Shown one piece after another: positions 44,817 through 48,311 of a stretch of 64,000 nt of DNA; position 1 is the stretch's first letter; each line of letters opens with the position of its first letter. The position numbers and the translations under genes are program-made. This DNA comes from Auraticoccus monumenti (GTDB taxonomy: Bacteria; Actinomycetota; Actinomycetes; Propionibacteriales; Propionibacteriaceae): assembly GCF_900101785.1 (NCBI RefSeq), contig NZ_LT629688.1, positions 3,782,001-3,846,000 of the forward strand, in the 5' to 3' direction. The notes below the pieces were generated by a model. It was not told the origin of the DNA. It did not search any database and saw only the letters and a program-made list of their open reading frames with translations.

Positions 44817-45680
44817 GTGGGCGCCCTCACCGACCTGGCCGGGCTGCTGCGATGCCCGGTCCCGCACCACGCCGGCGAGGCCGCGCTGGCCCCCGACGGT
44901 GACGGCCGGACCCTGGGCTGCCCGGACGGGCACCGCTTCGACCTGGCCCGCCAGGGCCACGTCAACCTGCTCAGCCGCCCGGCCGGGGCCAACGCGGACA
45001 CCGCGGAGATGGTCGCGGCGCGGGAGCGCTTCCTGGCCGGCGGCCACTACGCACCGCTGACCCGCGCCCTGGGCGACGTGCTGGCCGACCTCCCCGAGGA
45101 CGCGCTGCTGCTGGAGAGCGGGGCCGGGACCGCCCACCACCTCCGGGGCGTGCTGGGCGCGGGCCCGCGTCGTGGCCTGGCCCTGGACGTCTCGGTGGCC
45201 GCCGTCCGCCGTGCCGCGCGGGCCGACCCGAGGATCGGCGCCGTGGTGGCCGACAGCTGGGAGCCGTGGCCGGTCCGCACCGGCTGCCTGGACGCCGTGC
45301 TGGCCGTCTTCGCCCCGCGCAACCCGGCCGAGACCGCCCGGGTGCTGCGGCCCGGTGGTGTGCTGGTGGTGGCGACGCCGGAGCCCGGGCACCTGCGCGA
45401 GCTCCGGGAGTCCTCGTCCCTGCTGGGGATCGAGGAGGGCAAGGTGGAGCGGTTGCGCGAGCAGCTGGGAGCCGGCTTCGACGAGGAGGAGGTGGACGTC
45501 GTGGACCACCTGCTGCACCTCGACCCCACCCAGGCCCGCGACCTGGTGCTGATGGGCCCGAACGGGCACCACCTCTCCCCTGTCGAGCTGGCCGGTCTCT
45601 GGCCCGAGGGCGCGAGCACCCGGGTCAGCGTCCGGGTGGCCCGGTACCGCGTCCGCCCGCCCACCCGCTCCCGCGGCTGA
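44817..45680 (+). CDS. 23S rRNA guanine-N1-methyltransferase (RlmA/TlrB type)
   Basis: SAM-dependent methylation of G745 or G748 in 23S rRNA. The 287-residue product has an N-terminal zinc-finger region (C13, C35, H39, then FDLARQGHVNLLSRP as in E. coli RlmA FDMAKEGYVNLL), and a class I methyltransferase domain (LLLESGAGTAHHL, LALDVSVAAVRRAA, LAVFAPRNPAETARVLRPGGVLVVATP). The second zinc cysteine is replaced, reading CPVPHH. GTG start directly after the SDR stop. TlrB-type members confer tylosin tolerance in producers; nothing here shows such a role. Confidence 0.88.
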   Translation: MGALTDLAGLLRCPVPHHAGEAALAPDGDGRTLGCPDGHRFDLARQGHVNLLSRPAGANADTAEMVAARERFLAGGHYAPLTRALGDVLADLPEDALLLESGAGTAHHLRGVLGAGPRRGLALDVSVAAVRRAARADPRIGAVVADSWEPWPVRTGCLDAVLAVFAPRNPAETARVLRPGGVLVVATPEPGHLRELRESSSLLGIEEGKVERLREQLGAGFDEEEVDVVDHLLHLDPTQARDLVLMGPNGHHLSPVELAGLWPEGASTRVSVRVARYRVRPPTRSRG

Positions 45681-45716: not shown

Positions 45717-46640
45717 TCAGCCCTTCTTGCCGGCGGTCTTCCCCTTCGCCGCACCCTTGCCGCTCGTGGCCTTGGCGTCCTCGCCCTTGGCACTCTTGGT
45801 CTTGGCGTTCTTGGTCTTGGCGTTCTTGGTCTTGGCGTTCTTGGTCTTCGCGTTCTTGGTCTTCGCGCCCTTGCCAGCACCGCCCTCGGCGTCCTTGATC
45901 GTGTCGACCACGGCGCCCTTGCCGCTCCTGGCGTCCTCGACGTCCTTGATCTTGACGCTCTTGACCTTGGCGTCCTTGATCTTCCCGTCCTTGCCCTTGG
46001 CGCCCTTGACCTTGGCGCCCTTGACCTTGGCGTCCTTGACCTTGGCGTCCTTGCCCTTGGCGTCCTTGCCCTTGACGTCCTTGCCCTTGGCGTCCTTGGT
46101 CCCGGCCTGCTGGGCACCGGCCGCGGCGGGCGTAGCCCCCTGGCCGGTCGTCGAGTCGTGCGGCGCACCGGCGATCCCGGTCACCCCGGTCCCCCGGGCC
46201 GAGGCGAGCACGCGGCGGGCTCCCTCCAGCACCGTCGCACCGGCGACCACCTCGGCCGGAGGCGTCGCCGTGCTGGTGGCCCGGCTCCTGGAGCTGGCCG
46301 CCGCGGTGCCCGTGCGCCGGCGGGTGGTCCCGCCGGCGGAGCCGGCACGAGGACGTGCGCTGGCTCGTCGCGGCACCTCCGCCTCACCCTCGGCGCTCAC
46401 GCCGGACTGCGTGGTGACACGCGTCGGCACCTTCTCCGCCGGCGTGCGCGGCATGGCGCCACCCCGGGACCGCAGCCCCGTGCCGGCCTCCTTCAGCAGC
46501 GTCTGGACGAACCCGTAGGAGCGCCCGCAGGAGTCGGCGAGCGACCGCACGCTCTCCCCCGCGTCGTAGCGTCCACGCAGCTCGACGGCCAGGGTCTGCC
46601 GCTGCTCACCGGTGATACGGGCTCCACGTGCCATGGTCAT
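45717..46640 (-). CDS. HTH DNA-binding protein with histone-H1-like lysine-rich repeat tail
   Basis: A 307-residue protein in three parts. Residues 1-62 are a helix-turn-helix domain (ITGEQRQTLAVELRGRYDAGESVRSLADSCGRSYGFVQTLLKEAG), known from conserved actinobacterial proteins of unknown role. Residues 63-180 are low-complexity Ser/Thr/Ala/Arg. Residues 181-307 are Lys-rich pentapeptides: eleven units of the form xKDAK from 181-235, then TKNAK four times plus two variants at 261-290. Such tails bind DNA nonspecifically in H1-like and HupB-like proteins. ATG at 46640 follows GGAGG; the M at 46634 is an alternative. Located just after the ABC-F gene. Confidence 0.85.
   Translation of the reverse strand: MTMARGARITGEQRQTLAVELRGRYDAGESVRSLADSCGRSYGFVQTLLKEAGTGLRSRGGAMPRTPAEKVPTRVTTQSGVSAEGEAEVPRRASARPRAGSAGGTTRRRTGTAAASSRSRATSTATPPAEVVAGATVLEGARRVLASARGTGVTGIAGAPHDSTTGQGATPAAAGAQQAGTKDAKGKDVKGKDAKGKDAKVKDAKVKGAKVKGAKGKDGKIKDAKVKSVKIKDVEDARSGKGAVVDTIKDAEGGAGKGAKTKNAKTKNAKTKNAKTKNAKTKSAKGEDAKATSGKGAAKGKTAGKKG
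45796..45870 (+). repeat. 15-bp tandem repeat, five copies, inside the lysine-tail coding region
   Basis: Unit TTGGTCTTGGCGTTC repeats exactly three times (45796-45840); the fourth copy has one change and the fifth ends differently. In the gene it encodes the TKNAK pentapeptides. Copy number could vary by slippage without frameshift. More diverged copies of a related unit fill about 45950-46105. Confidence 0.9.
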
Positions 46641-46654
46641 CGTCGCCTCCAGGT

Positions 46655-46668
46655 TGATCTCGTGATCA
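46655..46668. promoter_or_regulatory. Short palindrome upstream of the HTH protein gene
   Basis: TGATCTCGTGATCA has matching TGATC/GATCA arms and lies 15 bp before the ATG, around the ribosome site region; a possible autoregulatory site, unproven. Confidence 0.3.
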
Positions 46669-46712
46669 GCCCATCATCCACGGTCACCGGTCGAGGCGGA
46701 CCGGCGGGTTGA

Positions 46713-48311
<1,599 letters not shown>

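Follow-up and report, generated by a model that had tools for sequence, protein, structure and literature searches.

Gene organisation at the locus

The window analysed here comprises 64,000 nucleotides of the Auraticoccus monumenti genome (contig NZ_LT629688.1, positions 3,782,001 to 3,846,000), and coordinates below are window positions. Its reverse strand carries a gbn-like gene at 45717..46640 (-), which encodes 307 amino acids plus stop in three parts, i.e. a helix-turn-helix (HTH) domain, a linker and a lysine tail. A preliminary description of this DNA had reported the open reading frame as an HTH protein with a lysine pentapeptide tail; the coordinates are correct, the HTH matches Pfam family PF19575 and the five-residue period is confirmed. 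A ribosome-binding site GGAGG (46646..46650, -) precedes the ATG at 46640. The possibility of a chance or frame artefact was ruled out, as the ORF contains a Pfam match, follows a Shine-Dalgarno site and has orthologues of like layout.

Directly upstream and on the same strand lies the gene of an ABC-F ATPase (46713..48311, -), confirming the neighbour named earlier; it is an orthologue of the gbn neighbour in Streptomyces- and Mycobacterium-type genomes. Three GATC sites, at 46656, 46664 and 46711 (46656..46714, no strand assigned), are located in the ABC-F/gbn gap and are possible own-promoter sites. Adjacency of gbn and the ABC-F gene is common to relatives at the family, order and class levels. 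The pair of ABC-F and HTH_58 genes occurs in Propionibacteriaceae, Kribbella-like (f78), Streptomyces-like (f4) and Mycobacterium-like (f5) genomes and others (genus labels inferred), with an ABC-F identity of 62-83%. On the other side, convergent with the gbn-like gene, the window carries an RlmA-like 23S rRNA methyltransferase gene (44817-45680, +). Its product matches models of 23S G748 methyltransferases below their cut-offs, and the gene is kept at the same place in most of the family.

The HTH domain and its family

Residues 4-62 (46455..46631, -) match the HTH_58 profile PF19575 with an E-value of 1.3e-26 and a score of 92.7 bits (gathering cut-off 23.8), which places the domain in HTH_58. 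Judged by sequence, the HTH is a member of the Gbn family. The domain is conserved in Actinobacteria, as the preliminary description held, but it is not an uncharacterised one. A Streptomyces-type orthologue (L010) has 73 amino acids, a computed mass of 7.67 kDa and a computed pI of 10.53; these values match the published Gbn (SCO1839) of Streptomyces coelicolor (73 aa, 7.6 kDa, pI 10.53; Du et al. 2022, PMC9239103) and support the Gbn identity of the family. The very short flanks of Gbn are not found in the window protein, where 246 of the 307 residues lie beyond the HTH. This linker and tail make it a variant of Gbn, since shortness describes Gbn and does not define the domain family.

In the AlphaFold2 model the first 55 residues form three helices (11-26, 31-38 and 42-52), with a pLDDT of about 87-90 over residues 11-50. 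The third helix contains the putative recognition helix, residues 42-51 (YGFVQTLLKE; 46488..46517, -), within a conserved motif. An alignment of 84 orthologue domains displays the pattern GRSYG..(V/I)..LL.E.G..(L)R.RGG, and the HTH residues are kept in the window copy. The best structural neighbours of the HTH model are DNA-bound HTHs (DeoR, KorB/ParB; Z 6.1-6.5). Foldseek retrieved generic DNA-binding HTHs only (E 0.17 or worse), and a sequence search of the PDB with the window protein found no relative. The CRISPR-repeat-binding HTH protein Cbp1 (NF040595) has a weak profile likeness of 19.5 bits against a curated cut-off of 140 and is a different protein.

Two relatives are characterised. 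In ChIP-seq Gbn occupies >2,800 regions with the motif GATCWT, and its DNA binding is also shown by EMSA; expression of bound genes is lowered, DNA is slightly stiffened and not compacted in tethered particle motion, and the phenotype concerns development and antibiotic production (PMC9239103). SCO1839 is also abundant in an independent nucleoid proteome (PMC3784963). The window protein shares with Gbn the PF19575-type HTH, the ABC-F neighbour (in Streptomyces-type genomes) and a GATC cluster upstream of its own gene, but adds a linker and a lysine tail to what in Streptomyces is a 73-residue protein that does not compact DNA. In EMSA, Rv1473A of Mycobacterium tuberculosis showed non-specific DNA binding (PMC9953421). 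It is a likely orthologue of the window gene according to gene order, being the locus-tag neighbour of the ABC-F gene Rv1473/OcrA; unlike the window protein, the orthologues read in Mycobacterium-type genomes have no tail. The earlier idea of a nucleoid protein made of an HTH and a tail thus gains from the established place of this HTH family (Gbn/SCO1839, PMC9239103) among nucleoid proteins.

Linker and lysine tail of the window protein

Between HTH and tail extends a linker of 118 residues (62-179; 46104..46457, -), rich in Ala, Thr, Gly and Arg and absent from the preliminary description. It is predicted to be disordered, with a pLDDT mostly <50. The tail proper (residues 180-307; 45720..46103, -) comprises 128 residues without predicted structure, among them 41 Lys (32%), 1 Arg, 12 Asp and 3 Glu, with a net charge of +27. 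All residues past 60 are unstructured in the AlphaFold2 model at low confidence, from an alignment only one or two sequences deep, which weakly supports disorder of linker and tail. Long, lysine-rich, C-terminal and disordered in the model, the tail is of the kind found in H1, HupB and TopA, in keeping with the likeness to H1 and HupB drawn before. In its anatomy the protein thus couples an HTH that reads sequence with a basic tail.

Identity at a lag of five residues is 0.50 in the tail. Shuffling the tail residues 2000 times gave 0.17 (sd 0.03, max 0.28), and composition thus falls far short of explaining the pentapeptide period. All Lys codons are AAG (43/43), and the tail has a GC3 of 0.97. 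Tandem Repeats Finder detects arrays of 15-bp period at 45944-46098 and 45756-45867 with 84-87% matches. Together with the codon table these delimit two tail arrays separated by a break, the first of xKDAK type (GKDAK, VKDAK, VKGAK, IKDAK; 45939..46103, -) and the second of TKNAK units (45789..45863, -). The TKNAK copies hardly differ at the DNA level, suggesting a recent 15-bp expansion. The window unit is thus xKDAK/TKNAK and not the PAKK/KAAK motif; PAKK units occur in orthologues, e.g. L113 and L117. No HU domain (PF00216) was matched in the window protein, which is therefore not a HupB, though its tail may work like that of HupB.

Other lysine tails in the genome were sought by similarity to two tail types. 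The idea that a mobile or duplicated module gave rise to the tail was rejected: no further copy of the KDAK tail was found in the genome, the sole additional match being an ORF with KPAPA repeats (E 0.9). L144 (G000:C1:1967153-1967335), a 549-residue ORF with a long KPAPA repeat run, is unrelated to the lysine tail and possibly an envelope protein.

Lysine tails among orthologues

An HTH_58 domain is present in 240 of 395 genomes drawn from the class. Outside the family, all orthologues read (39/39) end at most 14 residues after the domain. In Propionibacteriaceae, 42 of 50 complete orthologues possess a tail of at least 50 aa (the median over the 50 is 114 aa), and a net charge of at least +7 is found in 41 of the 42 long tails. 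Tail-less family members are G406, G575-G580, G586 and G612. Repeat units differ between genera and include AAKK/PAKK/TAKK (acid-free), KDSKG/SKDGP, KKAGKD, KPAK, KDAK (window) and KADRKARK. Tails of Cutibacterium-like members are K/R-rich, possibly coiled, and look helical rather than disordered. The KDAK/TKNAK unit was seen only in the window species among the orthologues read. According to these sequences the lysine tail is a trait of Propionibacteriaceae and not one of the HTH family as a whole.

When mapped onto a tree of the neighbouring ABC-F proteins, the tail states require 13 changes, and presence versus absence six; G585 is counted as short-tailed in this tree, although the contig breaks off within its gene. 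Most simply, the tail would have arisen once on the family stem, from the basic ATRGKK terminus found in orthologues outside the family, with later changes of repeat unit and occasional losses. The gbn profile is matched in 63 of 198 family genomes (f1), and many genomes without a match belong to genus code g240. In the one relative of the same genus (L123, G516:C5:174000-190000) the gbn-like gene is lost, and the ABC-F gene (90% identical) there directly faces the rlmA-like gene in convergent orientation. This loss, together with the many family genomes that miss the gene, indicates a dispensable function.

The preliminary description had asked how far the tail spreads, and had allowed that it might be a recent repeat expansion of this one protein, missing from all close relatives and without DNA binding. 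The particular repeat is indeed local, but lysine-rich tails turn up repeatedly within the family, and experiments have demonstrated DNA binding for relatives that lack a tail (PMC9239103, PMC9953421). A rival view takes the tail for a functionless array on a dispensable gene, produced neutrally when 15-bp units slipped in a GC-rich genome. The near identity of the TKNAK copies, the variation of the unit by genus, the gene loss in the same genus and the tail-less family members all agree with it. Slippage alone, however, would be expected to yield acidic or neutral tails equally, whereas basic charge is kept in all but one of the long tails despite their unrelated sequences, and tails are found in most of the family while the outgroups are uniformly tail-less. 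We consider neutral slippage unlikely.

Lysine tails of HU and topoisomerase I

The only HU gene of the genome (L145, G000:C1:818524-818790) encodes 91 aa without a lysine tail, and its topoisomerase I (L175) keeps a PAKK tail. Other family members possess a second, tailed HU. By the profiles used, HU is matched in 92 of 198 family genomes, and many of the genomes without a match to HU or to gbn fall in genus code g240. The C-terminal domain of HupB is indispensable for nucleoid association (PMC5676037), and the lysine repeats of TopA stabilise the enzyme on DNA (PMC7398561). Like HupB and HupS, the window protein carries a long, lysine-rich, H1-like tail C-terminal to its DNA-binding domain; HupB and HupS, however, combine an HU domain with a PAKK/KAAK repeat, and the window protein an HTH with KDAK. 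Actinobacterial topoisomerase I likewise carries H1-like lysine repeats at its C-terminus, which keep it bound to DNA, but it is an enzyme and its repeat is of PAKK type, not KDAK.

Strict complementarity, with a Gbn tail only where the HU tail is missing, is ruled out by the many family members that have both. Acid-free AAKK/PAKK Gbn tails occur only where HU is also tailed (12/17 versus 0/24 tree genomes, Fisher p 8e-7). On the tree this association reduces to 3-5 independent pairs, for which a sign test is not significant, and no coupling of Gbn and HU tails is therefore claimed.

The ABC-F neighbour and GATC sites

Lysine tails are as able to bind RNA as DNA. This counts for a role in which the protein works with the ABC-F factor at the ribosome or on rRNA; the tail would bind RNA, and the pair would deal with translation stress or with drugs directed at the ribosome. 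Several actinomycete families keep ABC-F and gbn as a pair, and an RlmA-like 23S rRNA methyltransferase gene adjoins the pair in convergent orientation. Rv1473/OcrA, the inferred mycobacterial ABC-F orthologue, protects ribosomes (PMC9159947; PMC13041422). Yet both characterised relatives, Gbn and Rv1473A, bind DNA, the Gbn phenotype lies in development and antibiotic production, the HTH resembles readers of double-stranded DNA, and in the same-genus relative the ABC-F gene persists without gbn. A ribosomal role is thus quite improbable; the link to translation stress proposed in the preliminary description is suggested by the conserved ABC-F neighbour alone.

Across 95 loci, which are related to one another, the ABC-F/gbn gaps (22.9 kb) contain 362 GATC, where the local background would predict 173 and dinucleotide shuffles give 208 (sd 11). 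The gap in the window has 3 GATC in 75 bp (expected 0.55 from locus background, 1.33 from shuffles). The excess is in line with the 8 GATC of the published gbn promoter (PMC9239103). Several family members (L070, L074, L141) and several Cutibacterium-like loci possess no GATC in this gap. Another palindrome, CATG, reaches about 2.6 times local background in the gaps of the 95 loci, part of which start codons may explain. Given the relatedness of the loci, the enrichment of CATG and the GATC-free loci, repression of the gbn-like gene by its own product through these sites is suggestive only. That the protein is no more than an ordinary repressor acting locally on the ABC-F/gbn operon, its tail serving only to raise affinity for its own promoter, would suit the GATC clusters and the published EMSA on the gbn promoter (PMC9239103), but is the least probable reading given Gbn at >2,800 regions in Streptomyces (PMC9239103) and SCO1839 abundant in nucleoids (PMC3784963).

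Proposed function of the tailed Gbn

The window protein is probably the Propionibacteriaceae form of Gbn, in which the HTH would read GATC, linker and tail would add a non-specific grip and the gene would repress itself. The three-helix HTH of 60 residues would read short GATC-centred sites chromosome-wide, as its Streptomyces orthologue has been shown to do. The HupB and TopA tails offer an analogy, on which the disordered linker and lysine tail may add a sequence-independent electrostatic grip on DNA; on the same analogy, this grip would lengthen residence and let the protein bridge or compact DNA around GATC sites, unlike tail-less Gbn. Selection would keep the charge and disorder of the tail and not its sequence, the repeat unit having been replaced repeatedly, and the KDAK/TKNAK version would be a recent 15-bp expansion. 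Against this reading stand 15 acidic residues in the window tail, the helical look of the Cutibacterium-like tails, the tail-less family members and the loss of the gene. The literature searched yielded no experiment and no paper on a tailed Gbn, which is apparently new to the literature.

A further step, which we regard as tentative and rather doubtful, is that the Gbn of Propionibacteriaceae turned from a non-compacting GATC reader into a sequence-anchored, H1-like compactor, supplying HupB/HupS-type activity where HU is tail-less. If true, the tailed Gbn would fill, in genomes whose only HU never had a lysine tail or has lost it, the H1-like role that HupB and HupS have elsewhere. Propionibacteriaceae form a natural set of tail variants on one conserved head (tail-less, PAKK, KD and coiled). 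The family would allow a direct test of what an H1-like tail does to a sequence-specific nucleoid protein, and of whether charge and disorder or sequence are selected.
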